Program-made: the position numbers and the translations under genes
DNA from: Bordetella genomosp. 10
GTDB lineage: Bacteria; Pseudomonadota; Gammaproteobacteria; Burkholderiales; Burkholderiaceae_B
NCBI RefSeq assembly: GCF_002261225.1
Contig: NZ_NEVM01000002.1
Span: 1,116,001 to 1,180,000 of the forward strand
DNA length: 64,000 nt
Direction: 5' to 3'
Notes under the pieces: generated by a model
The model's database searches: none
What the model was told of the DNA's origin: nothing
The model's input: only the letters and a program-made list of their open reading frames with translations
In this document: one piece after another, positions 4,378-49,529 of the stretch
How positions within the stretch are numbered: the first letter of the stretch is position 1
Layout: each line of letters opens with the position of its first letter

Positions 4378-4653
4378 GCTTTTCTCTCAAAAATATACAT
4401 CCGATCGTATATATAAAATGATGGTCTAGTCAATCGACAAGCCCCTCTGTGGGGAACTCGGCGCATGCAGGAAAGCGCCTTCCGCCTCGCTGGGTTTCAC
4501 GCTGCCGCCGGATGATTCCGGTGATTACGTCATTCTGGATAAGTATAAAAACGTTCGTATGCTTAGATTAATATTTGCGTGCGTTCGCAACGTGATGCGG
4601 ACAGGTCCCATGCCCTAGCGAATAGGGTTTTCCAACGATATCCGCTCGCCTAC
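4378..4653. promoter_or_regulatory. Divergent promoter region with ATATAC-N8-GTATAT dyad
   Basis: The gap between the efflux gene and the Bug gene contains a dyad with 6-base arms at 4393-4398 and 4407-4412. It lies only 16 bases upstream of the efflux start, where a TetR- or MarR-type repressor would commonly bind. A copy of the AAAAACGTTCG motif is at 4547-4557, closer to the Bug gene. No adjacent regulator gene serves this promoter unless it is the TetR gene at 5665-6321. Confidence 0.4.
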
Positions 4654-5649
4654 ATGAACTCCTTCGACCAAATGCGCCGCCGCCTGCTTGTCACCGGCGC
4701 CGCCGGTGCGCTCGCCAGCCTGGCTGGCGCGCCACGCCAGGCCCAGGCTGTCGCCGCTTACCCCGACAAGCCCGTCCGGATCGTGCTGCCGTATCTGACC
4801 AGCGGCCCCAATGGAATCGCCACGCGCATACTCGCGGATGGTCTGGCGCAGCAATGGGGGCAGTCGGTCATCGTTGACAGCCGTCCAGGCGCCAACGGTT
4901 CGATCGGCGCCATGGCGGTCAAGGAAGCGCATGCCGACGGCTACACCTTGCTGTCCGGCGCCATGTTCGTCGTGCTCAATCCCCTGATTGATCCTCAAGC
5001 ACGGTACAAGACGGAGGATTTCATACCCGTTGCCAGTTTTGGCGCACCGCCGAATGTCATCGTCGTCAATCGCGACGCGCCCTGGCAGACATTGGATGAC
5101 CTGATTCGTGACGGCAGGCGGCAGCCCGGCAAGCTTTCCTCACCGCATGCGGGGGTAGGCAGTTCCGTTCATCTGGGGCTGAGCCTGTTCCTGCAACAGG
5201 CCGGTATCGATGCCGTGGTGGTGCCTTACAAGGGCTCGCCTCCCTACGTCACAGACCTTTTGGGAGGGCGCCTGGATTTCGCCTTTCTCAGCGTGCAGCT
5301 TGCGCTGCCGCAGGTCGAGGCAGGACGACTGCGGGTGCTGGCGACAGTCTCGGAGCGGCGCCTGCCGGAGTTGCAGGCAGTGCCCACGCTCGGGGAGGCG
5401 GGTTATGCCGGCGCCGTGGTGACGCCGTGGTCCGGCCTTTTCGCTGCCGCCGGTACGCCTGCACCCGTGCTGGAGGTGCTGGCGCGCAGCGCCCGCAAGG
5501 CCCTGGCCGATCCCGATATCCAGCGGCGCTATCGCCAGATGTACGCGGAACTGCCGGTCGACCCGCTCGGCTTCCCGAAACTGGTCAGTGCAGAAGAAGT
5601 CCGGTGGAAACAGATCGTTGCCAGCCGGTCGATCAAGGACTTGGTCTGA
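4654..5649 (+). CDS. Bug-family periplasmic solute receptor (tripartite tricarboxylate transporter family)
   Basis: The start at ATG 4654 is preferred over the earlier in-frame codon at 4579 because it places a twin-arginine-like signal (R-R-R-L-L-V-T-G, then an Ala-rich stretch to A-Q-A) at the N-terminus. The mature 331-residue protein begins Y-P-D-K-P-V-R-I-V-L-P, the usual opening of Bug receptors, and has the G-Y-T-L-L and V-P-Y-K-G-S landmarks of the two-lobed ligand cleft. The common P-F-P-P-G-G segment is replaced here by L-P-Y-L-T-S-G-P, which may alter the ligand pocket. No membrane subunits (TctA/TctB) are nearby, as is usual for the many orphan Bug proteins of Bordetella. Ligand unknown, probably a carboxylate. 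Confidence 0.88.
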   Translation: MNSFDQMRRRLLVTGAAGALASLAGAPRQAQAVAAYPDKPVRIVLPYLTSGPNGIATRILADGLAQQWGQSVIVDSRPGANGSIGAMAVKEAHADGYTLLSGAMFVVLNPLIDPQARYKTEDFIPVASFGAPPNVIVVNRDAPWQTLDDLIRDGRRQPGKLSSPHAGVGSSVHLGLSLFLQQAGIDAVVVPYKGSPPYVTDLLGGRLDFAFLSVQLALPQVEAGRLRVLATVSERRLPELQAVPTLGEAGYAGAVVTPWSGLFAAAGTPAPVLEVLARSARKALADPDIQRRYRQMYAELPVDPLGFPKLVSAEEVRWKQIVASRSIKDLV

Positions 5650-5664
5650 ATGCGTACGGCGCTG

Positions 5665-6321
5665 TCACCGCGTAGCGGCAACTTTGCGGCGGGCGCTGCG
5701 TGGGCGGCTGTGGCCGTGCTCGAGAAGAAGACGCCGCGACTGGTTGTGGGCGAGCTTGAATTGGGCGGTGTCGCCCATCAGCGACGCGACATTGGCGCTG
5801 GCCTGAAAGGCCAGCAGCGCGAATGCGAGGGCCGGCACGTCGGTCTCGTCGCGCAATTGGCCCGCCTGGCGCGCGGCCTCCAACCATTCCTGCAGACGGG
5901 CCTGGCCCGCATGGCGGTAGTGATTGATGGCATCGCGGATCTGGCCTGGGCGCGCGCGGTACTCGCTGCTCGCCGAATTCAGAAAGCAGCCGCCCGGCAG
6001 CACGCGTTGTTCCACGAACGCGAACCAGTTGTCGACCCAGGCCAGCAGACGGTCCAACGGGGTGCGCCTGGTCGAGGCGGGGACAACAACCGCGCTGCGG
6101 AACTGCTCCATGACGCGGTCCAGCGTGGCGATCTGCAAGGCCTCCTTGTCGCCGAACAGCACAGTAATGTTGCCCTTGCTCACGCCGGCCTCGGTCGCCA
6201 CGCGTCCTATGGTCAGCCCGCTCAATCCATCGATCGAGGCAATGGCGATGGCGTGATCGAGGATGTGGGCGCGCGAGCGCTCGCCGCGCAGGCGGCGGCC
6301 GTCGGTTTCTTCCGTGGTCAT
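5665..6321 (-). CDS. TetR/AcrR-family transcriptional regulator
   Basis: ATG 6321 starts a 218-residue protein with an N-terminal helix-turn-helix at about residues 28-60 (L-T-I-G-R-V-A-T-E-A-G-V-S-K-G-N-I-T-V-L-F). The turn and recognition helix match the TetR family. The C-terminal two thirds form the variable ligand-binding domain. It is divergent from the thiol dioxygenase-rhodanese gene, with 65 bases between starts, the classical arrangement for a local repressor. The gene ends 15 bases from the Bug gene end (convergent). An earlier in-frame codon would add 67 residues unlike any TetR start and is rejected. Confidence 0.9.
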   Translation of the reverse strand: MTTEETDGRRLRGERSRAHILDHAIAIASIDGLSGLTIGRVATEAGVSKGNITVLFGDKEALQIATLDRVMEQFRSAVVVPASTRRTPLDRLLAWVDNWFAFVEQRVLPGGCFLNSASSEYRARPGQIRDAINHYRHAGQARLQEWLEAARQAGQLRDETDVPALAFALLAFQASANVASLMGDTAQFKLAHNQSRRLLLEHGHSRPRSARRKVAATR

Positions 6322-6386
6322 GGACGTGATTCCGTTTTCGGGGCGTATTGCCCGGATATTTATTCCACACGTACGTATTGTTTTCG
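6322..6386. promoter_or_regulatory. TetR / thiol-dioxygenase divergent promoter and likely operator
   Basis: The 65-base gap contains the perfect palindrome ACGTACGT at 6369-6376 and a direct repeat CGTATTG at 6344-6350 and 6374-6380. A TetR dimer bound here would cover both promoters. The sequence is direct; its assignment to the adjacent TetR protein is inference from gene arrangement. Confidence 0.5.
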
Positions 6387-8381
6387 ATGATAGCAGAGAC
6401 CTTAACGAGTGCGGGTACCGGCCGGCCTGGCAGTGTTGATGCGGGGGGGCCGTCCTTGCTGGACAAGCGCGCACACGCCGTGCGTGAACTGCTTGCAAAA
6501 ACTCGGGCGTCGACCCATGCACGGGATGGCCGCATACCCGATCTGTCGCAGATCAGCGCCGACCTGGCGCGCCTGGCCGCAAATGCAGCGTGGTTCACGT
6601 TCGACGAGTTTCCTGTCGATCTCGAACGCGTTACCACTTTTTATCGTCTTGCCGAAGACGCCGACGGGGCCTTTGCGCTTTACGTGTCGGCCAGCGTCCC
6701 GGGCCGTAAACAGCTGCCGCACGACCACACCACGTGGGCGGTCATCGCCGGCATCCGGGGTCAGGAGAAGAATGTCGTCTATCGCCGGACGCCGGGTGGC
6801 ACGCCGGGCGAGGTCAAGCTGTCGGCGTCGCGCACAGTCACGGTCGGCCCTGCGCAGGTGGTCGCCCTGGCCCCCGAGGACTTGCATAGCACCGAGATCG
6901 TTGGTGCCGCTCCCGCGCTCCATCTGCACTTTTATGGCCTCAGCCAGGAGCTGATGTTCGACCGTGTGCGGTACGACGACGTGGCTGGCGGGCATCCCGT
7001 ACCGGTGCCCGTGCCGACGCGCATCCGGCATCCGCTGGTGACGCCCGAGACATTGCACGGCTGGACGCAGGGCGCGGGTGAATTGGCATTGGTGGATGTG
7101 CGCACGGAGGCCGAGTACGCCACTGGCCATCTGCTGCACGCCAGCAACGTTCCCCTGGCCAACCTGGTGGCACGGATCGGCCGGCTCGTTCCTGGCCTGG
7201 AAACGCCTGTCGTCGTGTTGGACGCCAACGAGGAACTGGCCCATCTGGCGGCCGCCACCCTGGTCCGCCTGGGCTATGGGAGCGTTTCCGTGTTGCGCGG
7301 GGGGACCGGGGCTTGGGAGGCTGCCGGCTATCCCTTGTTCGAGGGAGTACATGTGCCAGGCAAGGCGCTGGCGGAGCAGGCACAGCGCGTTCTGGGTATT
7401 CCCGAGGTCGACGTGGCCGAATTCCATGCGTGGCGGGCCGAAGGACGGCCGCTGTTTTTGTTGGACGTCAGGCCGTTCGACGAGTATCGCCGCTATTCGA
7501 TACCCGGCTCGATCAATTGCCCCGCGGCGGACCTGGCGTTGCGTCTGCCGGCGCTGGATCTGGCTCCGTCCCTGACAGTCGTGGTCCATTGCGCGGGCCG
7601 TGCGCGCAGCCTGGTGGCGGCGCAGACCTTGATCGCGGCCGGAGTGCCGCAGCGTGTCTACGCCTTGCGCAACGGCACCATGAGCTGGGAGTTGGAAGGT
7701 GGAGAACTGAAGTCGGACCAGCAGGCCTTTCTGCCGCTTCCCTCCCATGACGAGCGGCCCGAGCAGGCTGCGCGGCGGCTGGCGGAGCAAAGAGTCCGTG
7801 CCACCAGCGTCGCGCGTCGCGCGGGACTGGACGTCGTGGACGATGCCGCATTGGCGCGCTTGCGCGAAGAATTCCATGGATCGGTTTATCTTTTCGATAT
7901 CCGCTTGCCAGGGGAGTTCGAAGCCGGTCATGCGGCCGGTTCGGTCAATGCGCCCGGAGGGCAGTTGATCCATACGCTCGACGCGTATGCGCCCGTACGG
8001 GGCGCGCGGCTCGTTCTGGTCGACTGGGATGGCGTGCGAGCCGCCTACATCGGCGCGTGGTTGGCGGCATTGGGCCGTCATGACGTTTCCCTGTGGCGGC
8101 CGTCGTCCGCGACGCCCTTGGTCACGGGCGCGACGCCGGCGCTCAAGCAGCCGGAACTCCATCCTGCTTTCTCCCGTGCGTTGACTACGGCCGCGCCGCC
8201 GTCGGCGCATGACGCCTGGCGTGGCCCTCACTCTTTGACCGATCCTCAGGAGAGACACGAGGCCTTCATCCGTTACCTGGAGTGGGAGGCAGGTTTGATC
8301 CGGCAGTTGTCCGACGCAGGGGAGACCGAATTGAACGAGGGTGTGCTCGCGGCTCTCGCGAGACCCGTAGCACAACCCTGA
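6387..8381 (+). CDS. Cupin thiol dioxygenase (cysteine dioxygenase-like) fused to three rhodanese domains
   Basis: The 664-residue protein starts with a cysteine-dioxygenase-like cupin (about residues 1-220). Candidate Fe ligands are H112 and H114 (P-H-D-H) plus H167 (L-H-S-T-E); H179 and H181 lie in the final strand. Three rhodanese modules follow at roughly 225-325, 345-445 and 490-585, each with the opening V/F-D-V/I-R. Only the middle one keeps the catalytic cysteine, C402 in H-C-A-G-R-A-R-S. The first has D279 and the third W547 at that place. Cysteine dioxygenase oxidises a thiol to a sulfinate and rhodanese moves sulfane sulfur, so a persulfide or thiol substrate is likely. It leads an operon with a NitT/TauT receptor. 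ATG 6387 was chosen because it starts right after the operator-like palindrome. Confidence 0.85.
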   Translation: MIAETLTSAGTGRPGSVDAGGPSLLDKRAHAVRELLAKTRASTHARDGRIPDLSQISADLARLAANAAWFTFDEFPVDLERVTTFYRLAEDADGAFALYVSASVPGRKQLPHDHTTWAVIAGIRGQEKNVVYRRTPGGTPGEVKLSASRTVTVGPAQVVALAPEDLHSTEIVGAAPALHLHFYGLSQELMFDRVRYDDVAGGHPVPVPVPTRIRHPLVTPETLHGWTQGAGELALVDVRTEAEYATGHLLHASNVPLANLVARIGRLVPGLETPVVVLDANEELAHLAAATLVRLGYGSVSVLRGGTGAWEAAGYPLFEGVHVPGKALAEQAQRVLGIPEVDVAEFHAWRAEGRPLFLLDVRPFDEYRRYSIPGSINCPAADLALRLPALDLAPSLTVVVHCAGRARSLVAAQTLIAAGVPQRVYALRNGTMSWELEGGELKSDQQAFLPLPSHDERPEQAARRLAEQRVRATSVARRAGLDVVDDAALARLREEFHGSVYLFDIRLPGEFEAGHAAGSVNAPGGQLIHTLDAYAPVRGARLVLVDWDGVRAAYIGAWLAALGRHDVSLWRPSSATPLVTGATPALKQPELHPAFSRALTTAAPPSAHDAWRGPHSLTDPQERHEAFIRYLEWEAGLIRQLSDAGETELNEGVLAALARPVAQP

Positions 8382-8439: not shown

Positions 8440-9588
8440 ATGAACTTTCCTGCCTATCGAGTGTTTTTGGTGTCGACTATCCGCCTGATGCGGAAGACAC
8501 GAGCTTCTCTTCGAATGAAAAACCGGCTGGCCCGCTATGCCCTGGGAATGGTGCTGGGCATCAGCGCCGTCCCGGCACATGCCCTGGACGAGGTGACGGT
8601 AGGCTTGACGCTGCCGCCCACGCCTGCCAATGGAAGCTTGTGGGATTTTGCCCAGCAACTGGGCATCTGGCAGGAAGAGGGCATCCAGGTCAAGACCATC
8701 GTATTCAACGGCGCCGGCGCGGTGATTCCCCAGGTGGCAGCCAAATCCATCTTCACGGGTCTGCCGAGTCCCGAGTCCATCCTGCAGGCATTCGCCGCGG
8801 GCCAGGACCTGCCGCTGGTCTATGTCTACAACCAGATCCCCGTCAATACACTGGAATTCGCCGTACTGGAGGATTCCCCGATACATCGCGTAGAGGATCT
8901 GAAGAACGGCAAGATAGGCGTGGGAGCGCTGACCTGGGGCAATATTCCCAGCACACGCGCGGTGCTCAAAGACGCGGGTATCAAGCGCGACGAATACGAG
9001 ATCATCCCCGTCGGCGCGCTGAACGCCGGGTTCACGGCGCTCAAGCGGGGCAAGGTCGACGCACTGAATTTCAATCGGGACTGGAACGATATGTTCGAGT
9101 TGTCGGGTAACCCGATCAGGCACATTCCCTTGCCCGGCGTTTATGGCGCGATGTCGCTCAATGGTTTCGTGGTCCATCCCGATACCTTGAAATCGCGGCC
9201 GGATCTTATCGTCCGATTCGGTCGTGCATACAGCAAAGCGCGCATCGCCTGCGCCGCCAATGTGCCCGCTTGTGTCGCAGCCTACTGGCGCGCCCACCCT
9301 GAAGCCAGACCGGCCGAGGCCGACGTTCGGGCGGGCAAGGATCACTCCCTGGAACTGACCCGGCGCTGGCTGGCACGATTCCTGACCTACCCCGATGGCA
9401 CGCCACGCGTGCAAGGGGAGTTCGACATTTCCGTCATTCGGCAATACGTTCATCAGATGGCCGTCAACGGCGAGTTCGCGTCTGACAAGGTTCCTGTGGA
9501 TCGCCTGTTCACGAATGCTTTCGTCAAGCAGTTCAACCAGTTCGATGCCGAGGCGATCCGCGCTCGGGCGCGCGGAGTGACACCGTGA
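8440..9588 (+). CDS. ABC transporter substrate-binding protein, NitT/TauT/SsuA type
   Basis: The 382-residue frame encodes a two-lobed periplasmic receptor of the nitrate/sulfonate/taurine/thiamine-precursor class. After a signal sequence ending near A-H-A, the mature part begins L-D-E-V-T-V-G-L-T-L. Features of the class are G-I-W-Q-E-E-G-I, F-A-A-G-Q-D-L and R-V-E-D-L-K-N-G-K-I-G-V. The true start may be ATG 8515, which gives a standard signal peptide (M-K-N-R-L-A-R-Y). It overlaps the next gene by 4 bases. No permease or ATPase is in this operon; the ssu-like genes at 10.7-12.4 kb could supply them. The link to the dioxygenase-rhodanese gene suggests a sulfur-containing ligand. Confidence 0.85.
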   Translation: MNFPAYRVFLVSTIRLMRKTRASLRMKNRLARYALGMVLGISAVPAHALDEVTVGLTLPPTPANGSLWDFAQQLGIWQEEGIQVKTIVFNGAGAVIPQVAAKSIFTGLPSPESILQAFAAGQDLPLVYVYNQIPVNTLEFAVLEDSPIHRVEDLKNGKIGVGALTWGNIPSTRAVLKDAGIKRDEYEIIPVGALNAGFTALKRGKVDALNFNRDWNDMFELSGNPIRHIPLPGVYGAMSLNGFVVHPDTLKSRPDLIVRFGRAYSKARIACAANVPACVAAYWRAHPEARPAEADVRAGKDHSLELTRRWLARFLTYPDGTPRVQGEFDISVIRQYVHQMAVNGEFASDKVPVDRLFTNAFVKQFNQFDAEAIRARARGVTP

Positions 9589-10583
9589 ATTCCCTGGACG
9601 CTGATCCGCCCGGCGCCGAGCCGATCGAGGGAGAAGTATTCCACTCGGGGGAGCGGCGCTTGCAGCTTCACTTCGGCGTACGCGAGCGGGTATCGCAAAA
9701 TGGCCGGCGTGCCATCCAACCCGCGATGACCGGCGTCCATGCCGAGTTCCTGCGCAGCCTGTCTTATCTCATCATCGGGGCGCGCGATGGACAGGGCCGG
9801 CTGTGGGCGACGATGGTTTTCGGGACGCCGGGTTTCGTCGTTCCCCGCAGCGATGTCGTTTTGGACATCGGCGCCAGGCCCGCCGGGATCGATCCTGCCG
9901 GCGCAGGGTTGGAGCAGGGAGCATCGGTGGGGCTGCTGGGTATCGTCCTGGCCGAGCGCCGACGGATACGCGTCAACGGATCGGTTGCTCGATCGACGGC
10001 CACAGGCCTGCGCGTCGATGTCGTCCAGTCCTACAACAACTGTCCGCAGTACATCTGGCCCCGTACGCCAGGTCCGGTCGAGGCACCCAACGTGACGGTG
10101 TGGGCGCCTGTCCGGCAAGCCACTTTGGCGTCCCCCGCGGTCCGCCAAGCCGTCGAGGCCGCCGATACCTTCTTCATCGCCAGCGGCTATCGCAGTCAAC
10201 CGGGAGACGCCGCCAATATCGATGACGGCATCGACGTCTCTCATCGGGGAGGAAGGCCCGGATTCATCCGTATCGATGGCGGCGTACTCAGCTGGCCCGA
10301 GTATCGGGGCAATTGGTACTTCAATACGCTGGGCAATCTGCTGGTGGACGGCAATTGCGGTCTTCTTATTCCGGACTTTCGCAGCGGTGCGGTCCTGCAG
10401 ATTCAGGGGCACGCCACGATCGTCCTGGACCCGGACGAGCCGGTGCGTGATGGCCTGGATGAAGGTTTGAATGTGAATGCGGAAGTCCGCGTCACTGTGC
10501 TCCAGGTCCTGGTCCGTCCAGGGATGATCCCCCCGAACTGGCAGTTGTCGTCGCGGGCCCGGACCAAGGATGTAGAACTCTAG
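9585..10583 (+). CDS. Pyridoxamine-5'-phosphate-oxidase-fold flavin-binding protein
   Basis: The GTG start overlaps the preceding stop (GTGA), a sign of translational coupling. The 332-residue protein has the split-barrel FMN-binding fold of general-stress and PNPOx-related proteins. Family landmarks are F-L-R-S-L-S-Y-L-I-I-G, G-T-P-G-F-V and the strongly conserved S-Y-N-N-C-P-Q-Y-I segment. A C-terminal repeat of the barrel (N-W-Y-F-N-T-L-G-N-L, then G-A-V-L-Q-I-Q-G-H-A) shows the long two-domain form. As third gene of the dioxygenase-rhodanese operon it may handle flavin- or electron-transfer steps on the sulfur compound. The reaction is unknown. Confidence 0.82.
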   Translation: MNSLDADPPGAEPIEGEVFHSGERRLQLHFGVRERVSQNGRRAIQPAMTGVHAEFLRSLSYLIIGARDGQGRLWATMVFGTPGFVVPRSDVVLDIGARPAGIDPAGAGLEQGASVGLLGIVLAERRRIRVNGSVARSTATGLRVDVVQSYNNCPQYIWPRTPGPVEAPNVTVWAPVRQATLASPAVRQAVEAADTFFIASGYRSQPGDAANIDDGIDVSHRGGRPGFIRIDGGVLSWPEYRGNWYFNTLGNLLVDGNCGLLIPDFRSGAVLQIQGHATIVLDPDEPVRDGLDEGLNVNAEVRVTVLQVLVRPGMIPPNWQLSSRARTKDVEL

Positions 10584-10709: not shown

Positions 10710-11615
10710 TCATGCAGGCCGCCGGGGCGCCGCTGTTCTGGATTGCCTTGATGGCAGTGCTGGTTTTCTCGCATTCCGGCCGTGTTCGGCCGGGTGCAGT
10801 ACGCTGTCAAGGATGCGCGATTCAAGTATGCCAAACGCAGGATTGCGCGGGGATCGGGGGCGGGGCAGGTCGATACGCAGATCCAGCGCGATGGTGCCTT
10901 CTTCGATCACCAGCACACGGTCGGCCAGCGCCACGGCTTCCGCCACATCGCGAGTGACCAATACGGCGGTGAATCCTGCCTGCTGCCATATTCGCTCAAT
11001 CAGTCCCTGCATCTCCAGCCGCGTCAGCGCATCGAGAGCACCCAGCGGCTCATCGAGGAGCAGCAGCCTGGGGCGATGCAGCAGCGCGCGCGCCAACGCG
11101 ACACGCTGCTTCTGGCCTCCAGAAAGCGCGGCCGGCCAATCGGCCGCGCGGCTTTCCAGACCGACGTCGCGGAGGACCGACATCGCTGTCGCACGGGCCG
11201 ATGGCGGCAAGCCCAGGGCCACATTGTCGATCACTCGGCGCCAGGGGAGCAGGCGATCGTCCTGGAACATCAGCCGGATGTTGACGTCCGCGCCGTCGAA
11301 GCCTATGGATTCCGGCGCGCCTGGCGCCCCGTCGTTCGGCGCTTCCAACCCCGCAAGCGTACGCAGCAACGTGCTCTTGCCGCAGCCGGAGCGCCCGACC
11401 ACGGCGACGAACTCGCCCGCTTCGATGTCGAGGTCGATCGCGTTCAGCACACGCCGGTCGCCATAGGACTTGCTAAGGCCACGCAGTCGTACCGCGAGGC
11501 CCCGTGGCGCGTCGGTCGTTTCGGCACCGATCCCGTTCGACGCGGGCAGGTCGACCAGCGCCGCGTCTCCGGCGCCCAGCCCCAGACGGCGCAAATGCGT
11601 GGACAGGAAGTTCAT
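10710..11615 (-). CDS. ssuB: ABC transporter ATP-binding protein, SsuB/TauB-like, with altered H-loop
   Basis: This 301-residue ATPase has Walker A (G-R-S-G-C-G-K-S-T), Q-loop (Q-D-D-R-L-L-P-W-R), signature (L-S-G-G-Q-K-Q-R) and Walker B (L-L-L-L-D-E-P). The D-D-R-L-L-P-W segment is typical of the SsuB/TauB/NrtD group that powers sulfonate, taurine or nitrate import. The H-loop reads V-T-R-D-V-A-E-A-V: the switch histidine, needed for hydrolysis in most ABC ATPases, is Arg here (codon CGC rather than CAC). ATG 11615 is preferred over the in-frame codon at 11669, which lies inside the permease gene. It is the third gene of ssuA-C-B, 13 bases after the permease. Confidence 0.85.
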
Positions 11616-11628
11616 CGGAGCATCCGTA

Positions 11629-12417
11629 TCATTTCGTTTGCACGGGCTGGTACGCGGGATGCCAGGCAAGCAGCGAGCGCTCCAGCAGTTTGGCGGCCAG
11701 GTCCGCCGCTTTACCCAGCAGGGCGTAGAGCAGAATGCCTACCATGACGACGTCGGTCAGCATGAATTCGCGCGCATTGACCACGAGATATCCTATGCCG
11801 GCCTGCGCCGCGACCGTTTCCGCGACGATAAGGGAAATCCACATGTGCCCAAGGGCGTAGCGCAGTCCGACGAGTATGGAAGGCGTGGCGCCAGGCAGTA
11901 TCACCTCGCGAAGTAGCTGACGATGGTCCAAGCCGTAGCTTCTTCCCATTTCGATCAACGCGGGGTCGACCGCGCGGATGCCATGGTGTGTATTGAGATA
12001 AATGGGAAAGAAGACACCGATTGCGATGAGCAGCGTCTTCGTCTCTTCGCCGATGCCGAACCACAGAATGATCAGGGGTAGCAATGCGAGCGAAGGAATG
12101 TTGCGCAGCATCTGTACCGTTGTGTCCAGTACGGTCTCGGCCGATCGGAAGGCGCCCGTTGCCATGCCCAACAACAAACCCGCCGTGCCGCCGGCGGCCA
12201 GCCCTATGGCGGCACGCCACGCACTGATGCGCAGATCCGCCCACAGCTCGCCGCTACGAGCGAGCTGGACGAGCGCCTGGATGACCTCCCACGGTCCGGG
12301 GAGTACGCGTGGCGGGAAGATATTGCTTTCCGCCACGATCTGCCAGAGGACGGTGAGCAGGAGTGGGACGGCCCAGGCAGCTGCCTTGGGAACCGGGCGA
12401 CGATATGCGCGCGTCAT
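11629..12417 (-). CDS. ssuC: ABC transporter permease, SsuC/TauC-like
   Basis: The 262-residue inner-membrane protein has about six helices. The EAA cytoplasmic loop reads [17 protein letters not shown], followed by [20 protein letters not shown] is the family hallmark of SsuC/TauC/NrtB subunits. It would form a homodimer energised by the 10710-11615 ATPase and receive ligand from the 12430-13398 receptor, which lies 12 bases upstream. The length is normal. The gene matches the decayed permease at 2351-2790 in family and shows what that copy lost. Confidence 0.88.
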
Positions 12418-12429
12418 GGCTGCTTGTCC

Positions 12430-13398
12430 TCAGTCGTGCCCTATGTTCACGACGGCCTTGGACACTTCCACCGGTCGCGGGATCAACTTGTTGTCGAAAA
12501 TGAGGTCCGCGGACTTCTGCTGGGCCGAGATCACTTCGGCGCTTAATGGGTAGTGCGTCCCCCAGCCGGCGCGCGGAATGGCGACTTTCCAGATGGGCGC
12601 CTTGACACCGGTCCCCTGTTCGAGCAGCGTTGCAGTCTCGTCGATGTGCGCAAGCGCATACTTTTCCTGCTTGTCGAGCTGGTCGAAGACGACGCGCAAG
12701 GTGGCGGGGTAGCGCTCGGCGAAGCTGCGCGCGGCGATGTAAAAGCTGTATTGCGGCACGGAGATCTGGCCGATGCGCAGGACGGTGCGGGCATGGTTGT
12801 TCAGTTCCACGTCGGCGTACCGCGGATCGGGCACGACCCAGGCGTCGATATCCCCACGTTCGAAGGCGGACCGGGCATCGCTGTAAGACAAGAAGGTGAT
12901 GCCGACCTCAGTGATCTTGATGCCGGCGTCGCGAAGTGCCTGGAGCAGGAAGACGTTACCTTGCGAACCTTTGGCCGTCGCCACGCGCTTGCCACGCAGG
13001 TCAGTGACGGCATGAATGCTTGACTTCTCCGCGACGACGATGCCGTAGCCATCCTTTTGAGGATCCGAATAGGCGACGTACCGGACTTCCGGGGCACTGC
13101 CTGCCTGGGCCAGGATAGGGGGTGTCGAGCCGACCGTACCCAGGTCTACCGCTCCCGCGTTGATGCCCTCGACCAAGGGAGGACCATAGGCAAAGGTGAG
13201 CCATTCCACCTTGACTCCGTGCGGCGCCAGGGCTTTCTCCAGTTGGCCAGAGGCGCGCAGGGCGACCAGGCCGTCGGCCTCCTGTACGCCTATGCGTATG
13301 ACCTTGGGCCAGTCTTCCGCCATGGCGGCACCGCTATTTGCACCGAGAATGGCGGCCATGATGGCCGGACCAATGAGAGCCTTGAAATTCAGTTTCAT
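12430..13398 (-). CDS. ssuA: ABC transporter substrate-binding protein, aliphatic sulfonate (SsuA-like)
   Basis: ATG 13398 starts a 322-residue precursor with a signal peptide (M-K-L-N-F-K then a hydrophobic stretch to A-M-A). The receptor has the SsuA pattern: I-R-I-G-V-Q-E-A-D-G at the mature start, G-A-V-D-L-G-T-V-G-S-T-P-P in the first lobe, and G-K-R-V-A-T-A-K-G-S after the hinge. These indicate binding of a sulfonate or related anion, but the exact ligand is not deducible. First gene of the ssuA-C-B transcript. The conserved block at 13531-13588 lies 133-190 bases upstream of the start and is shared with the peptide receptor gene at 20.1 kb. Confidence 0.87.
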   Translation of the reverse strand: MKLNFKALIGPAIMAAILGANSGAAMAEDWPKVIRIGVQEADGLVALRASGQLEKALAPHGVKVEWLTFAYGPPLVEGINAGAVDLGTVGSTPPILAQAGSAPEVRYVAYSDPQKDGYGIVVAEKSSIHAVTDLRGKRVATAKGSQGNVFLLQALRDAGIKITEVGITFLSYSDARSAFERGDIDAWVVPDPRYADVELNNHARTVLRIGQISVPQYSFYIAARSFAERYPATLRVVFDQLDKQEKYALAHIDETATLLEQGTGVKAPIWKVAIPRAGWGTHYPLSAEVISAQQKSADLIFDNKLIPRPVEVSKAVVNIGHD

Positions 13399-13530
13399 GG
13401 GTAAACGTCGTGGCTGAGATAGGGCTGGACCGGCGAAGGCACCTTGCGGGCCTCCTGCACGGATGTATGGGGGCTGGACGGCAGGCGTATTCCGCGTAGC
13501 GGCAAAGACCATCGAGTTGTGCGTAGCTCT

Positions 13531-13588: not shown

Positions 13589-13785
13589 CATGTAGATATG
13601 GCGTTCGGCTAGCCTGATCCCTTCCTTGCACGCAGCTTCGCTGCATACCCTTATGCGCCATCGATCTATGGATGCCCATGCCGCGCCGATAGAATCTTCG
13701 GCATAGCATGCCGGGAATCGGCGCGGGCAGTGTCCTCCAACGCAGCCCGGCATTGCGTGCCGACGCGCCTGGCCTGGGTAGGACA

Positions 13786-14934
13786 ATGAGCGAATATCTG
13801 GATTATTGGCGCTGCTTCGGCGAAGACTACGCGTCCGCAAGGCATCTTTTCCTGGAAGCGGCGACCGCCGCCGGCGCCGACCTGACGGCCTATATCCATC
13901 CCGACAGAAAAGGGCCGGAAGGCGAGGCATTGGCCGTGGATGTGGCGACCCTGGGCCCGCAAGACGCGTCCAGGCAGTTGCTGATCCTGAGCGGCACCCA
14001 TGGCCTGGAGGGCCGCGCCGGCTCCGCCATGCAAGTGGCGTGGCTGCTTGCCGGCGACGGCGGCCGCCTGCCTCCCGATGTCAGGGTGGTGCTGGTTCAC
14101 GCCCTCAATCCCTATGGCTTCGCCTACGCGTCGCGGACCACGGAAAACAACGTGGACCTGAACCGCAACTTCGTCGACCATGGCGCGCCGTATCCGGACA
14201 ACCCGGGCTACGCCGAACTGCACCACGCCTTGCTGCCACCGGTCTGGTCCGAAGCGGCGCTGGCCGCGACGGAGGCCGCCACCGCACGCTATCGCCAGGA
14301 GCATGGTCCCGACGCCCTGTTCGATGTGACCGCGCGAGGCCAGTACACCCATCCCGACGGCGTCATGTATGGCGGGCGTGGCCGCGAGTGGTCCAATCTG
14401 ACCCTGGAGCGTATCGTGCAGACCCATCTGGCCGGCGCGCGCCAGGTCGGCCTGATCGACTGGCATACGGGCATAGGCGACTATGGCGAGCCTTTCTTCC
14501 TGTGCTTCAACCCGGACGGCAGTGACCTTCAGGCGGAGGCCGCCCGCTGGTGGGGCCATGAACGCGTGGTGGGCCAGCGGCCAAACGGCCTGGCCCGGCC
14601 GGACTACCAGGGCCTGGTGTTCAACGGCGTCAGGCAGTTCCTGGACGGGCGTCCCATGGTGGGCGCGGTCATCGAGTACGGCACCGCGGCCGGACCCGCA
14701 CGCGCGGCCTCGCGACTGGACCAGTGGCTGCGCTTCGTGGCGCCGGGCCAGCCCGATCCCAGACGGGACGCTATCCTGAAAGCTGACGTCATCGACGCCA
14801 TGGTGCCCACGTCCAGCCTGTGGCGTCGCGCTGTCATCAAGCACGGCCTGCAGATCACCCGCCAGGCGGTCGCCGGCATCGCCAGCTGGCGCACGGACGA
14901 CACGCGCGTGGGCACACTCACCGGGGAATCGTGA
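13786..14934 (+). CDS. DUF2817 / M14-like zinc carboxypeptidase-fold hydrolase
   Basis: This 382-residue cytoplasmic protein (no signal peptide) belongs to the DUF2817 group related to M14 metallocarboxypeptidases. Likely zinc ligands are in S-G-T-H-G-L-E-G and D-W-H-T-G-I-G. The substrate-carboxylate Arg motif is N-V-D-L-N-R-N-F, and a probable catalytic Glu lies in V-I-E-Y-G-T. It would hydrolyse a terminal amide or peptide bond. Its stop overlaps the next start by one base (TGATG), so it is coupled to the FMN monooxygenase gene. Together with the peptide and sulfonate transporters around it, release of a sulfur-containing amino acid derivative is a reasonable guess. Confidence 0.8.
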   Translation: MSEYLDYWRCFGEDYASARHLFLEAATAAGADLTAYIHPDRKGPEGEALAVDVATLGPQDASRQLLILSGTHGLEGRAGSAMQVAWLLAGDGGRLPPDVRVVLVHALNPYGFAYASRTTENNVDLNRNFVDHGAPYPDNPGYAELHHALLPPVWSEAALAATEAATARYRQEHGPDALFDVTARGQYTHPDGVMYGGRGREWSNLTLERIVQTHLAGARQVGLIDWHTGIGDYGEPFFLCFNPDGSDLQAEAARWWGHERVVGQRPNGLARPDYQGLVFNGVRQFLDGRPMVGAVIEYGTAAGPARAASRLDQWLRFVAPGQPDPRRDAILKADVIDAMVPTSSLWRRAVIKHGLQITRQAVAGIASWRTDDTRVGTLTGES

Positions 14935-16259
14935 TGGCCACTCGCCAATTGAAGCTGGGCGCCTTCATGCGCCCGGTCAGCATCCATACCGGCGCATGGC
15001 GCTATCCAGGCGCCACGCGCGATGCCAATTTCAATCTGCCGGCATTGAAGCGCTACATCCAGACCCTGGAGAAGGCCAGGTTCGATGCCTTTTTCATGGC
15101 GGACCACCTGGCCGTGCTGAACATGCCGATCGATGCGCTCAAGCGCAGCCATACCGTCACGTCGTTCGAGCCTTTCACGCTGTTATCGGCGCTCAGTCAG
15201 GCGACCGAGTATATCGGCCTGGTCGCCACCGCTTCCACCACGTTCGACGAGCCCTTCCACGTGGCGCGCCGCTTCGCCTCGCTGGATCACCTGAGCGAGG
15301 GCCGGGCAGGGTGGAATGTGGTGACCACGTCCAATCCTGATGCCGCGCTGAATTTCGGCCGAGAAGAGCATGTCGACCACGCCCGGCGTTATGCGCGTGC
15401 GCGTGAGTTCTTCGACGTGGTGACCGGACTGTGGGACAGCTGGGCCGACGACGCTTTCATTCGCGATGCCGAGCAGGGCCTTTATTTCGATCCCGCGCGC
15501 TTGCATACGCTGGCGCACAAAGGCGAGCACTTTTCCGTACGCGGGCCCTTGAACATCGCCCGGCCCGTGCAGGGCTGGCCGGTCATCGTGCAAGCCGGGG
15601 CCTCCGAGCCCGGCCGGCAATTGGCCGCGGAAACGGCCGAAGCTGTCTTCACAGCGGTGCCCAACCTGGCCGCCGGCCAGGCTTTCTATGCCGACGTGAA
15701 AGGCCGCATGGACCGTCTCGGGCGCGACCGGGAACACCTGAAGATACTGCCAGGCGCGCTCGTTGTCGTGGGCGAGACGCTCGATCAGGCCAAGGATATC
15801 CGCAACCGCCTGGACGGCCTCGTCCACGATGCCAGCGCGATTGCGTCGCTCTCTGTCGTGCTGGGCCACGACGCATCGAAGTTCGACCTGGATGGCCCGC
15901 TGCCTGACATCCCCGAAAGCAATGCCAGCAAGACCGGGCGGCAGCGCGCCGTGGATCTGGCGCGCAGCGAAAACCTGACCGTGCGGCAGCTGGCGCGGCG
16001 CCTGGGCGGCTACGGCGGCCTGACTTTCGCCGGCACGCCGACGTCGATCGCCGACGAGATGCAGGCGTGGCTGGAAGGCTATGGCTCCGATGGCTTCAAC
16101 GTGATGTTTCCCTGGCTACCGGGCGGCCTGGACGCCTTCGTCGAAGGGGTCGTTCCCGAACTGCAGAGGCGCGGCATCTTCCGCCGGGAATACGAAGGCA
16201 AGACGCTGCGGGACAACCTGGGGCTGCCCCGGCCGGAGAATTGCTTCTTCCCGAGGTGA
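14934..16259 (+). CDS. FMN-dependent LLM-class monooxygenase (NtaA/SnaA/DszA family)
   Basis: The 441-residue protein has the TIM-barrel luciferase-like fold with NtaA/SnaA/DszA features: F-M-R-P-V-S-I-H-T-G-A-W-R at the start, the W-N-V-V-T-T-S-N segment after the flavin site, and Q-A-G-A-S-E-P-G-R. Members use FMNH2 from a separate reductase to oxygenate compounds such as nitrilotriacetate, EDTA, dibenzothiophene sulfone or alkyl sulfur compounds. A flavin reductase is not adjacent; one lies at 54691-55320 but in another operon. Coupling to the DUF2817 hydrolase suggests two-step breakdown of an imported compound. Substrate uncertain. Confidence 0.88.
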   Translation: MATRQLKLGAFMRPVSIHTGAWRYPGATRDANFNLPALKRYIQTLEKARFDAFFMADHLAVLNMPIDALKRSHTVTSFEPFTLLSALSQATEYIGLVATASTTFDEPFHVARRFASLDHLSEGRAGWNVVTTSNPDAALNFGREEHVDHARRYARAREFFDVVTGLWDSWADDAFIRDAEQGLYFDPARLHTLAHKGEHFSVRGPLNIARPVQGWPVIVQAGASEPGRQLAAETAEAVFTAVPNLAAGQAFYADVKGRMDRLGRDREHLKILPGALVVVGETLDQAKDIRNRLDGLVHDASAIASLSVVLGHDASKFDLDGPLPDIPESNASKTGRQRAVDLARSENLTVRQLARRLGGYGGLTFAGTPTSIADEMQAWLEGYGSDGFNVMFPWLPGGLDAFVEGVVPELQRRGIFRREYEGKTLRDNLGLPRPENCFFPR

Positions 16260-27290: not shown

Positions 27291-28457
27291 ATGGCCACGG
27301 GTGTGCAAGCTTCGGACGTCTGGGCGGCGGCGGACGCGTTGTTGCAGGCGGGCGAGCAGCCTACGATCGAACGGGTGCGATTGCATTTGGGACGGGGCTC
27401 GCCCAATACGGTCGGGCCGCATCTCAAAGCTTGGTTTCGTGGCCTGAGCGAACGCCTGGTGGGCGGGCAAGGGCGGTCCACGGACATTCCCGAAGGGGTG
27501 ACCCGCGCGGTGACGCAGATTTGGGAGCAAGCCCTGGCCTCGGCCCGTGAGGAATGGGCGCTTGCATCGGCGCGCGAGCGCGATGAACTGGCGCGGGTTC
27601 GGGAGCAGATTGCCTCGGACCAGGCTGCTCTCGCGCAGGAGCAGGTTCGCCTGCGTATCCGGGAAAGCGACCTGGAGGCTGCCGCGCATGCCGCCCGCGC
27701 CCAAGCCACGGCTGCCGAGGAGCGCTTGCGTAACGCCGAACGACAGGCGCGGGACGATGCGGCCGCCCTCAAGACGCTGAATCAGCGATTGGCCGCAGTC
27801 CAGGAGCAGGTCGTCGCCGGCCAGCATGCTTTGCGCGAGGCGCAAGCGGCCGGACGGGAGGCGGTGGCAGCCAGTGAAGCTCGCCACTCGGCCCATGAAA
27901 AACGCTGGCTCGGTGAGATCGACGCCCAGCGTCAGGCGCTGAAGAAGACGCAGGAAGAATTGGACCGGCTGCGCAAATCCACCGAGGCCGCTGCCGCCCA
28001 ATTCCAGGCGCAGGTGTCCCAATTCCAGTCCCAATCCACCCAGCTTCAGGCGCAGGTAGCGACATTGCAAGGGGAGTTGACCCAATCCCGCGACGAGATC
28101 GATGCCCAGGCGCGCCGCGCGGCGATGGCCGAGGCGAATGCCGAGACCTTGTCCGCGCGCATGGCAAGCGCCGCCGAGGCGGCCGACGCCGCGCGAGCGC
28201 AGGCCGCGCAATCGTCCGCTCAACTCATCGCGCAGAACGAAACGCTGCGGGAACAACTGGCCGCCAAGGATCGCCAGATCGAACTATTGATGCAGGTAGC
28301 CGCGCGCGTCAGGGCCTCTGACGATCAAGGCCAGGACAGCAGCAAGGAGAAGGCGCTAACGGCGCAAGCCACTGGCCCCGTCTCGGCGCCGGCCAGCCCC
28401 ACGTCGGCTGACGCTGCCGGGGCAAAAGTTTCAGGAAAGAAGGGGAGGGGCGGCTGA
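27291..28457 (+). CDS. KfrA-like DNA-binding coiled-coil protein
   Basis: The 388-residue protein starts with a KfrA_N DNA-binding domain (about residues 8-120: V-W-A-A-A-D-A-L-L-Q-A-G, then R-V-R-L-H-L-G-R-G-S-P-N-T-V). A very long Ala/Gln/Glu-rich coiled coil (about 90-345) and a Lys/Gly-rich tail (G-K-K-G-R-G-G) follow. AGGAG precedes ATG 27291. KfrA of IncP plasmids is an autoregulated nucleoid-like protein that aids plasmid maintenance; many betaproteobacterial chromosomes carry relatives of unclear role. No plasmid replication or partition gene is next to it here. Confidence 0.85.
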   Translation: MATGVQASDVWAAADALLQAGEQPTIERVRLHLGRGSPNTVGPHLKAWFRGLSERLVGGQGRSTDIPEGVTRAVTQIWEQALASAREEWALASARERDELARVREQIASDQAALAQEQVRLRIRESDLEAAAHAARAQATAAEERLRNAERQARDDAAALKTLNQRLAAVQEQVVAGQHALREAQAAGREAVAASEARHSAHEKRWLGEIDAQRQALKKTQEELDRLRKSTEAAAAQFQAQVSQFQSQSTQLQAQVATLQGELTQSRDEIDAQARRAAMAEANAETLSARMASAAEAADAARAQAAQSSAQLIAQNETLREQLAAKDRQIELLMQVAARVRASDDQGQDSSKEKALTAQATGPVSAPASPTSADAAGAKVSGKKGRGG

Positions 28458-40714: not shown

Positions 40715-40917
40715 GGCGGCGGAAAACGGGCGGCGGAAAACGGTCAGGGTATTCCCGATATGGGTGTGGCTTCCTCTGGGAGCATTGCCGTTTCGGCAAC
40801 GATGGATTCTACTCGTTGATCTTGTGGCACGCCGCGCGCGTCCCTAGGATGACAACTCCGGCGTGCGGTTTCGCTGCCGTCTCCATTCCGGATATCCCTC
40901 CCGCTCCGCCGACGCTC

Positions 40918-42339
40918 ATGACACTATCTTCCGCCGCCTCCGCCCAACCTTCCACCGCCGATGCGGGGAAGGGCGCACCCGGCCAGGCCGAAACCGCCGC
41001 CGCGACCCTGGCGGCATTGCGTTGCGCGCAACCCTTGCTGTGGCTGCGCCCCGCGGCGCCGGCCGAGGGCGCCGCGCCGGATGCCGGGACGCGGTTCCGT
41101 CCCGAACTGGTCCTGCTCGCGCGCGCCCGCTTCGAGCGGTTTGCCCCGCTGTTGGCGGAGCTGGCGCCGGAGCTCGCCGGCAGCGGCGGCATCATCGAAT
41201 CGCCCTTGTTGCCCGTGCCCGCCATGCAGCAGTCCCTGGGCCTGGGGAGCGCCGACGGCCGGCTTTACGTCAAGGCCGATCATGACCTGGCCATCGCGGG
41301 CTCGATCAAGGCGCGCGGCGGCATCCACGAGGTGCTGCAATACGCCGAGTCCCTGGCCATGCGGGAGGAGTTGCTGCGGCCCGGCGACGACTACCGCGTG
41401 CTGGGCGGCGCGGCCGCGCGCGCGTGCTTCGCGCGGCACCGCGTCGCCGTCGGCTCGACGGGCAACCTGGGCATGTCCATCGGCATCATCGCGTCCCTGC
41501 TGGGCTTCCAGGCCGAGGTCCATATGTCGGCGGACGCCAAGGCCTGGAAGAAAGCCAGGCTGCGCGCGCACGGCGTGAAGGTGATCGAGCATACGGGCGA
41601 CTACGAGCAGGCCGTGGCCGCCGGCCGCGCGGGCGCCGAGTCCGATCCTTACGCCTATTTCGTGGACGACGAACGTTCGCCGGCGCTGTTCGCCGGTTAT
41701 GCGGCGGCCGCGCTGCACTTGCGCGAGCAGTTGCAGGCCGCCGGCATCGGCGTCGACGCGGATCGTCCGCTTTTCGTCTACCTGCCTTGCGGCGTCGGCG
41801 GCGCGCCGGGCGGCATCGCCTATGGCCTGAAGATGCTGTTCGGCGAGCACGTGCACTGCTTCTTCGCCGAGCCGGTGCAATCGCCGTGCTTCCTGCTGGG
41901 CATGATGGCGCAATGCGGGCAGGCGCCGGGCCTGCCGGCGCTGCCTTCGGTCTACGACGTCGGCCTGCTGAACCGCACGGAAGCCGACGGCCTGGCCGTG
42001 CCGCGCGCGTCGGATCTGGCCCTGGCGGCCATGGCCACCCGCCTGGCGGGCGTCTACACGGTCAGTGACGACCGCCTGTTCGCGGACCTGGCGCGGCTGC
42101 ACGACAGCGAAGGCTTGCGCGTCGAACCCTCGGCGGCGGCCGGCTTCAGCGGGCCGGCGCGGGTGTGCGGCACGCCGGCCGGCCAGGCCTATCTGCGCGA
42201 GCATGGGTTGCAGGATCGCATGGACCACGCCACGCACCTGGCATGGACCACGGGCGGCCGCTTCGTCCCGCCGGAAGAATTCGAAGGCTTCCTGCAACGC
42301 GGCAGGAACGCGATCGCGGCCGACGCGGCCCGGGCATAG
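40918..42339 (+). CDS. dsdA: D-serine ammonia-lyase (D-serine dehydratase)
   Basis: The 473-residue PLP enzyme converts D-serine to pyruvate and ammonia. The PLP lysine is K131 in A-I-A-G-S-I-K-A-R-G-G, a hallmark of DsdA (K-A-D-H-D-L-A precedes it). The phosphate-binding loop S-T-G-N-L-G-M-S and L-P-C-G-V-G-G-A-P-G-G follow. ATG 40918 gives an N-terminus about 20 residues longer than E. coli DsdA. Being next to a cluster of amino-acid/opine oxidation genes suggests general use of D- or N-modified amino acids. Confidence 0.93.
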   Translation: MTLSSAASAQPSTADAGKGAPGQAETAAATLAALRCAQPLLWLRPAAPAEGAAPDAGTRFRPELVLLARARFERFAPLLAELAPELAGSGGIIESPLLPVPAMQQSLGLGSADGRLYVKADHDLAIAGSIKARGGIHEVLQYAESLAMREELLRPGDDYRVLGGAAARACFARHRVAVGSTGNLGMSIGIIASLLGFQAEVHMSADAKAWKKARLRAHGVKVIEHTGDYEQAVAAGRAGAESDPYAYFVDDERSPALFAGYAAAALHLREQLQAAGIGVDADRPLFVYLPCGVGGAPGGIAYGLKMLFGEHVHCFFAEPVQSPCFLLGMMAQCGQAPGLPALPSVYDVGLLNRTEADGLAVPRASDLALAAMATRLAGVYTVSDDRLFADLARLHDSEGLRVEPSAAAGFSGPARVCGTPAGQAYLREHGLQDRMDHATHLAWTTGGRFVPPEEFEGFLQRGRNAIAADAARA

Positions 42340-48237: not shown

Positions 48238-48293
48238 ACCCTCATCCGAACAGCCAACCCCAATAGCCAACCCTTTTGAAGGCCATCGTCTCC

Positions 48294-49529
48294 ATGTCCA
48301 CGTCCGAAGTTCTTGCTCCCGCCACCCCGCTGCGCCGCGCCCGCCGCATCGCCAACATCGAAGTTTCGGAAATCCTGCGCATCGGCGCGCGCGCCGCGCA
48401 ACTCAAGCGCGAAGGCCGCGACGTCATCGTGCTGGGCGCGGGCGAGCCGGATTTCGATACGCCGGAAAACGTCAAGGCCGCGGCCGTGCGCGCCATCGAG
48501 GCCGGCGAAACCAAGTACACGCTGCTGGACGGCACGCTGGCGCTGAAGCAGGCCATCGTCGGCAAGTTCAAGCGCGAGAACGGCCTGACCTTCGGCGTCG
48601 ACCAGATCACCGTGGGCGCCGGCGCCAAGCAGGTGCTGCATAACGCATTGATGGCCACCCTGGACGAGGGCGACGAGGTGATCGTCGTCACGCCGTACTG
48701 GACCTCCTACGCCGACATGATCACCCTGGCCGGCGGCGTCACGGTGCAGGTGCCCGGGCGCGAGGAAAACGGTTTTCTGCTGGATCCGGCCGACCTGGAA
48801 GCCGCCATCACGCCGCGCACGCGCTGGCTGATGTTGAACTCGCCGTCCAACCCCTCGGGCGCGGCCTACGACGAAGCGCGCCTGCGCGCCATCGCCCAGG
48901 TGCTGCTGCGCCATCCGCACGTCTGGCTGCTGTCGGACGACATCTACGAACACCTGATCTACGACGGCTTCGAATTCAAGACCATGGCGCAGATCGAGCC
49001 GCGCCTGGCCGATCGCACGCTGACGGTCAACGGGCTGTCCAAGGCCTACGCGATGACGGGATGGCGCCTGGGCTACGCCGGGGGGCCGCGCGAGCTGATC
49101 GCGGCCATGGCCGTGGTGCAGAGCCAGAGCACCTCCAATCCCTGCTCGATCTCGCAGGCCGCCGCCATCGAGGCGCTGAACGGCCCGCAGGACGTGCTGG
49201 AAGAGCGCCGCGCGTCCTTCCTGCGCCGCCGCGACCTGGTGGTGGCCGCGCTCAATGCCATCGAGGGCATCCGCTGCCGCCGGCCCGAGGGCGCGTTCTA
49301 TACCTTCGCCAGTTGCGCGGGCGTGCTGGGCAAGACCACGCCGGACGGCAAGGTGCTGGAGACGGACGCGGATTTCTGCGCGTATCTGCTCGACGCGCAT
49401 GACGTGGCCGTCGTCCCGGGCACCGTCTTCGGCCTGGCCCCGTACTTCCGCATCAGCTACGCGACCTCGGAAGCGCAGTTGAAGACGGCGATGGCGCGCA
49501 TCGCCGCCGCGGTGAAGGCGCTGCGCTGA
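48294..49529 (+). CDS. Class I aminotransferase, aspartate-aminotransferase-like
   Basis: The 411-residue PLP enzyme has G-A-G-E-P-D-F-D-T-P at the start and N-S-P-S-N-P-S-G in the core. The PLP lysine is K250 in N-G-L-S-K-A-Y-A-M-T-G-W-R. The substrate-carboxylate Arg lies in Y-F-R-I-S-Y-A-T. The fold type I subgroup I-gamma includes aspartate and prephenate aminotransferases, so it moves amino groups between amino and 2-oxo acids. It follows the GntR gene and could work with the ThDP enzyme on 2-oxo acids. Confidence 0.9.
   Translation: MSTSEVLAPATPLRRARRIANIEVSEILRIGARAAQLKREGRDVIVLGAGEPDFDTPENVKAAAVRAIEAGETKYTLLDGTLALKQAIVGKFKRENGLTFGVDQITVGAGAKQVLHNALMATLDEGDEVIVVTPYWTSYADMITLAGGVTVQVPGREENGFLLDPADLEAAITPRTRWLMLNSPSNPSGAAYDEARLRAIAQVLLRHPHVWLLSDDIYEHLIYDGFEFKTMAQIEPRLADRTLTVNGLSKAYAMTGWRLGYAGGPRELIAAMAVVQSQSTSNPCSISQAAAIEALNGPQDVLEERRASFLRRRDLVVAALNAIEGIRCRRPEGAFYTFASCAGVLGKTTPDGKVLETDADFCAYLLDAHDVAVVPGTVFGLAPYFRISYATSEAQLKTAMARIAAAVKALR

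Follow-up and report, generated by a model that had tools for sequence, protein, structure and literature searches.

The 64,000-nt stretch of Bordetella genomosp. 10 DNA analyzed here (contig NZ_NEVM01000002.1, positions 1,116,001 to 1,180,000; hereafter the window) encodes, at 6387..8381 on the forward strand, a fusion of a cupin domain resembling mercaptosuccinate dioxygenase (MSDO) with three rhodanese modules, in an open reading frame (ORF) of 664 aa without internal stop. We consider it fairly probable (roughly 0.6) that the product is a bifunctional cytosolic catabolic enzyme for organosulfur thiols. By analogy to homologues, the cupin would bind Fe(II) via H112, H114 and H167 and, with Arg193 holding the substrate, oxidize a small carboxylated thiol with O2 to a sulfinate, while Cys402, in the only catalytic rhodanese module, would carry sulfane sulfur as a persulfide. 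The rhodanese would serve the same pathway, most likely by transferring sulfane sulfur to sulfite originating from the sulfinate, yielding thiosulfate. The Asp-bearing modules 1 and 3 may be structural or regulatory, and the fourth module found in relatives may be dispensable. Dioxygenation of a carboxylated thiol is likely because of the fold, the metal ligands and other site residues, and their conservation, all established by computation; transfer of sulfane sulfur is likely because of C402, and a shared pathway because of gene adjacency and repeated fusion, which computation establishes as well. The product of MSDO decomposes to sulfite (PMC5373536), which would make transfer of sulfur to sulfite the most economical link between the two activities; this last step is the weakest in the scheme and, in our estimate, doubtful, and the presumed cytosolic location is among its weaker elements. 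The fusion physically links thiol oxidation with sulfane-sulfur transfer, and if the steps are coupled it would offer a direct way to test how organosulfur-degrading bacteria handle sulfite and persulfide by-products.

A preliminary description of the locus, made from the sequence alone, had proposed a cupin with His ligands H112, H114 and H167 joined to three rhodanese modules, only one of them catalytic, and these assignments hold. Pfam detected three rhodanese stretches in the 664-aa protein and gave no match for the cupin, which was recognized by sequence against the PDB (8vni, E-value 4e-31) and by its predicted fold. The structure prediction suggested in that description as a check returned, with high confidence and with the tail helices in place, a cupin fold with the three His residues at the ligand positions and rhodanese folds for all three modules, and neither a cupin devoid of a metal site nor a non-rhodanese module was seen. 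The C-terminal helices taken alone give a weak match (6.6 bits). Source records name the fusion family mostly "rhodanese-like" or "sulfurtransferase", and some add "predicted metal-dependent enzyme".

The predicted model and the alignment reveal the cupin fold and the three-His site typical of the thiol dioxygenases, namely cysteine dioxygenase (CDO), 3-mercaptopropionate dioxygenase (3MDO) and MSDO. H112, H114 and H167 are invariant among 49 aligned proteins and correspond to 3MDO ligands 90, 92 and 142 (numbering from PMC8050391). The residues His179-His181-Tyr183 occupy the place of the Ser-His-Tyr motif of 3MDO, as in 8vni. The 3MDO counterpart of Arg193, Arg168, binds the substrate carboxylate (PMC8050391). 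The feature that sets the fused cupins apart lies at position 85, beside the conserved Tyr. This position is presumably that of CDO Arg60, and we take position 119 to be that of CDO Cys93 (CDO numbering). In a tally of 80 fused cupins, 19 cupins encoded next to a rhodanese gene and 26 standalone cupins (one of the latter gapped at position 85), the residue of the fused proteins is Val in 41, Ile in 34, Phe in 3, Leu in 1 and Arg in 1 (Tistrella), while Arg is found in 15/19 adjacent cupins and in 24 of the 25 ungapped standalone ones. The split persists after thinning at 80% identity (37/38 fused cupins without Arg; Arg in 14/18 adjacent and 9/10 standalone ones), but it is not absolute, since the fused-type residue also occurs in 4/19 adjacent cupins, and Arg in the fusion from Tistrella. 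The MSDO structure 8vni has Arg and the window cupin has Phe85, so if Arg at this position is a defining feature of MSDO, as the sequence comparison leads us to infer, the window cupin departs from it. Because the fused cupins have lost this Arg, mercaptosuccinate is probably not their substrate, and it is unlikely to be the best one. Unfused cupins beside rhodanese genes at four loci (L107, L110, L112 and L071) carry the fused-type residues (Leu/Val 85, Arg 87) and are possible relatives of the pre-fusion state.

Among the rhodanese modules, the CX4R loop C402-R407 (within HCAGRARS) is confined to module 2. In a set of 130 non-identical ORFs (80 fused and 50 unfused, including only three of the listed P-numbered proteins), module 2 has Cys and the Arg five residues further in 130/130, module 1 has Asp at the Cys position in 127/130, in agreement with the Asp279 originally assigned there, and the column of D546 in module 3 contains Asp in 128/130 and Cys in 2/130. 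Retention of Asp at both of these positions argues against random decay of the inactive modules. The preliminary description had placed Trp547 at the catalytic position of module 3; the absence of Cys from that site stands with either residue, but Asp546 is probably the true counterpart, because in each module of the predicted model a strand is directly followed by a non-loop residue, namely D279 (strand 275-278), C402 (397-401) and D546 (541-545), respectively. The spacing of five residues from D546 to the invariant Arg (R551) is the same as that from C402 to R407, and in the module 1 profile D279 is aligned both with C402 and, without a nearby gap, with D546. Trp at 547 occurs in 50/80 fused ORFs and is not among the residues listed for the unfused ones (a list that covers 47 of the 50). 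Against Asp546, the direct profile comparison of modules 3 and 2 pairs C402 with W547, by means of two compensating one-residue gaps.

The preliminary description saw in this locus a dedicated organosulfur pathway; the organosulfur context is indeed there, but the architecture is not specific to the locus, and uniqueness was rejected, as the fused or adjacent pair recurs across genomes. Among 80 genome loci, 63 have one fused ORF and 15 carry separate cupin and rhodanese genes next to each other; in 14 of these 15 the cupin gene comes first, with a gap of 0-84 bp, and in one (L079) the order is reversed. Of the remaining two loci, L080 contains just the rhodanese part and L061 is cut by the end of its contig. 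The nearest relatives of the window protein, among the matches listed, are P0003 (58%) and P0004 (54%). The four-module fusion recurs in many genera of Burkholderiales and in Alphaproteobacteria. In a sample from the order of an Achromobacter genome, 79/399 genomes have a match at E-value ≤1e-40, nine of them over both halves, of which one (G181, locus L100) has two adjacent genes, leaving at least 8 with the fusion. In a sample from the class of Stella, 50/289 genomes match, 15 of them over both halves, and 11 of these were confirmed as single ORFs (including G004, the Tistrella genome of L077/L089). From these counts, the fusion spans many genera and yet is rare across the whole groups. The architecture is thus already present in sequence databases; in the openly licensed literature, judged by title or start of abstract, we did not find it described. 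Plasmid records from Caballeronia (L082) and Aminobacter (L083) have the adjacent pair with a gene annotated as cystathionine beta-lyase, and an Azospirillum plasmid record has the pair without such an annotation in the stretch shown. On a Klebsiella pneumoniae plasmid (NZ_CP079675, 101274-102727), genes annotated as rhodanese-homology and cysteine dioxygenase lie under one match.

Phylogenetic analyses suggest that the fusion arose at least twice. In the cupin tree (66 rows), 37/38 fused cupins form one starred clade, and the fused cupin of Tistrella (L077/L089), which has Arg at position 85 and Cys at 119, falls outside it, within another starred clade of MSDO-type cupins from adjacent-gene loci. 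Fused and unfused sequences intermingle in the 83-row tree built on modules 1-3, so that eight changes are needed, of which at least 3 are forced by starred branches; a single clade of all fused rows was rejected there (p-AU 1.6e-6), and the apparent splits L080 and L111 may be fragmentary contigs. Both trees were built quickly, with a single support measure, from thinned sets (83 of 130 ORFs and 66 of 125 cupins). The independent Tistrella fusion, with its MSDO-type cupin, should be useful as a natural comparison.

Within up to 8 kb of the 63 fused genes, members of the pyridoxal phosphate (PLP) enzyme family of Cys/Met metabolism were found at 36 loci, a permease family of ATP-binding cassette (ABC) transporters, which we read from sequence as the polar amino-acid type, at 34, TctC receptors at 30, family-3 binding proteins at 28, a separate MSDO-like cupin at 18, a TST and YeeE-family pair at 7 and a Dpp-type permease at 4; these counts are not independent, because the loci are related to each other, nor are they complete, with more than 15 kb available at 52/63 loci. 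The Advenella MSDO gene lies in a cluster with genes encoding a cystathionine beta-lyase, a rhodanese and an ABC importer for amino acids (PMC5373536). The limits of the neighbor counts weigh against the proposed bifunctional enzyme, as do several other points. The window cupin differs from MSDO at position 85, and the substrate of MSDO may not carry over to it; the Pfam scan of 44 of the 54 called window genes gave no Cys/Met-family PLP enzyme, and representatives of two other PLP enzyme families lie 34 and 42 kb from the fusion (40816-42339 and 48276-49529); no result of the analysis fixes the donor or the acceptor of the rhodanese; and no measured activity of any fused protein was found in the openly licensed literature.

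The PLP enzymes near the fused loci, together with the cystathionine beta-lyase annotated in the adjacent-gene operons L082 and L083, would also fit a scheme, close to that of the preliminary description, in which persulfide unloading comes first: a C-S beta-lyase would generate a persulfide R-SSH, Cys402 would remove its outer sulfur, and the R-SH set free would be oxidized by the cupin half of the protein. C-S beta-lyases can make persulfides out of disulfides. We regard this order of steps as a serious but unlikely competitor; the scan of 44 window genes gave no such lyase, the lyases of the relatives could equally supply the thiol alone, and the direction of sulfur flow cannot be read from sequence.

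Somewhat less likely still is that two independent activities were joined for co-expression, with the cupin detoxifying thiols and the rhodanese supplying sulfur for cofactors or tRNA or defending the cell against cyanide or sulfide. Many unfused rhodaneses of the four-module type lack an MSDO-like cupin nearby (for example L101-L106, L108, L109, L111 and L113-L120; ~1.5 kb on each side), a result obtained with an MSDO-like query, which misses other types of cysteine dioxygenase and found none in L084, though one is annotated there beside the rhodanese gene. A cofactor-related role of the Variovorax paradoxus rhodanese is also mentioned (PMC5373536), but the repeated fusion and the tight adjacency favor a shared pathway. 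It is improbable that the cupin acts on a persulfide instead of a thiol, as a cupin analogue of the persulfide dioxygenase-rhodanese fusions. The cupin matches listed are thiol dioxygenases and R193 suits a carboxylated thiol, and the known persulfide dioxygenases are metallo-beta-lactamase folds.

The bifunctional thiol-catabolic enzyme remains our preferred interpretation, and the window copy represents, on the sequence evidence, a three-module variant of it that has lost module 4. It is the sole copy without this module among 206 fused ORFs from overlapping sets (the window protein, the best 120 of 300 matches, in which P0002 is the window's own protein again, and 64 plus 21 ORFs from loci, with L085 to L089 repeating L003, L004, L009, L052 and L077). 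After the matched end of module 3 it has 89 residues, compared with at least 172 in the other fused ORFs. The fused relatives have ORFs of 710-988 aa and, in 7/7 scanned, four Pfam rhodanese stretches (three in the window copy), and the alignment with the Pseudomonas aeruginosa structure 1yt8 covers 520 residues for P0003 and 418 for the window copy. Module 4 is without Cys in all 79 other fused ORFs compared. A module 4 hidden by a frameshift was rejected, because the reading frame is uninterrupted and runs into the conserved tail without leaving space for a module. The window copy forms its own clade with P0003 and P0004 in both trees (100*), at the end of a long branch (0.5 and 0.62, versus medians of 0.24 and 0.21). 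That branch, the loss of module 4 and a broken ABC permease gene 3.5 kb away might suggest a decaying gene without function, but this is very improbable given the open frame, the retention of the ligands, C402 and R407, the codon-position G+C content resembling that of the neighboring genes, and the high-confidence model that includes the tail helices. As a natural deletion variant, the window copy may be used to ask about the role of the inactive rhodanese modules.

Coordinates of the fusion gene, its domains and site residues, and the neighboring genes in the window
Feature	Position	Strand	Basis
Whole fusion gene (MSDO-like cupin, then three rhodanese modules and the C-terminal helices)	6387..8381	+	ORF list, Pfam, predicted model
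Cupin (thiol dioxygenase) domain, residues 24-204	6456..6998	+	
Phe85, at the position of 3MDO Gln63; MSDO has Arg	6639..6641	+	alignments, residue tallies
Metal ligands H112 and H114 (HDH motif)	6720..6728	+	aligned with 3MDO His90/His92; invariant
Third metal ligand H167	6885..6887	+	aligned with 3MDO His142; invariant
Arg193	6963..6965	+	profile alignment with 3MDO Arg168; invariant in fused, adjacent and standalone cupin sets
Rhodanese module 1, residues 214-325; Asp279 (7221-7223) replacing Cys	7026..7361	+	Pfam, profile, model, tallies
Rhodanese module 2, residues 335-445; catalytic Cys402 (7590-7592) in CAGRARS	7389..7721	+	Pfam, profile, model
Rhodanese module 3, residues 480-580; lacks Cys, the site residue being most likely Asp546 (8022-8024)	7824..8126	+	Pfam, profile, model
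Linker, residues 573-608, at the place of module 4 of relatives; partly low model confidence	8103..8210	+	
C-terminal helices, residues 609-645; after module 4 in relatives and 1yt8	8211..8321	+	
TctC-type receptor	4579..5649	+	Pfam
TetR-family regulator, divergent, 65 bp upstream of the fusion gene	5665..6321	-	Pfam
NMT1/SsuA-like substrate-binding protein, gene after the fusion	8440..9588	+	Pfam, NCBIfam
PPOX-type flavoprotein-like gene, weak match; 4-bp overlap with the 8440..9588 gene	9585..10583	+	NCBIfam
SsuB/SsuC/SsuA-like sulfonate-type ABC importer genes	10710..13512	-	Pfam, NCBIfam

The divergent TetR-family gene proposed earlier is confirmed. An inverted-repeat search for its operator over 6290-6410 yielded a single 9-nt palindrome, which lies within the TetR gene, and none in the 65-bp gap. 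The sulfonate-type receptor and the PNPOx-fold flavoprotein gene assigned to the same operon do lie downstream on the same strand, but their NCBIfam matches are below the curated cut-offs (sulfonate receptor, 53.6 of 163.5 bits; PPOX, 45.7 of 170), and their co-transcription with the fusion gene is suggested by spacing only. Further companions of the fusion in the window are a luciferase-like monooxygenase (14820-16259, +) and a Dpp-type importer. Together with an acyl-CoA-dehydrogenase-like gene (821-2059, -), whose best NCBIfam match, SfnB, is below the cut-off (81.7 of 430.9 bits), the monooxygenase gene flanks the fusion and the SsuABC-like genes; SfnB-like and luciferase-like monooxygenase genes are often met in organosulfur use. 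The broken permease gene mentioned above (2060-2835, -) looks like a remnant spread across frames and is, judged by eye, apparently a pseudogene, and a DUF2817 protein (13708-14934, +; E-value 8e-109) adjoins the sulfonate-type importer. The G+C content is mostly 62-67% in positions 1-32000 and 66-74% in 32000-64000, with lower third-position G+C in the first part, and a protein with a KfrA_N domain is encoded at 27291-28457; the sulfur-related block may have been acquired.

More speculatively, the fused cupins, with Val/Ile/Phe where CDO and MSDO have Arg and 3MDO has Gln, could represent a third substrate type of small-thiol dioxygenase that acts on a different carboxylated thiol, and within the same chain an array with one active site could run from thiol to sulfinate to sulfite and then to thiosulfate, with the Asp-containing pseudo-modules serving for docking or gating, in an architecture fused at least twice and trimmed to three modules in the window; taken as a whole, we consider this extended scenario unlikely.

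Among known systems, the window cupin appears closest to MSDO (8vni; Variovorax paradoxus B4 and Advenella mimigardefordensis), with which it shares the fold, the three His ligands, the H-x-H-x-Y motif and the equivalent of Arg193 at 35-36% identity, and from which it differs by Phe85 in place of Arg and Val119 in place of Cys. The MSDO gene clusters with a rhodanese gene (PMC5373536), whereas the window cupin is fused to the rhodaneses. From 3MDO (4tlf, 6xb9) it differs by His179 in place of the Ser of the Ser-His-Tyr motif and by Phe85 in place of Gln63, and from CDO by Phe85 and Val119 at what we take to be the positions of Arg60 and Cys93. The persulfide dioxygenase-rhodanese protein BpPRF (5ve3) is likewise an iron sulfur-dioxygenase fused to a rhodanese, and its rhodanese domain matches that of the window protein; its dioxygenase belongs to another fold, the metallo-beta-lactamase fold, which is not found in the window protein, and it has one rhodanese module. 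The best structural counterpart of the rhodanese part is the four-module thiosulfate sulfurtransferase 1yt8, which matches modules 1-3 and the tail helices at 1.8 A (418 residues, 40% identity) and shares the Asp/Cys/Asp pattern of modules 1-3 (with Asp546 the most likely residue in module 3, and Trp547 by one alignment); the two differ in that 1yt8 carries a fourth, Cys-containing module but lacks a cupin, while the window protein has the cupin and no module 4. The four-module fusions of Variovorax, Achromobacter, Cupriavidus, Acidovorax and others have the same domain order and site residues as the window protein.
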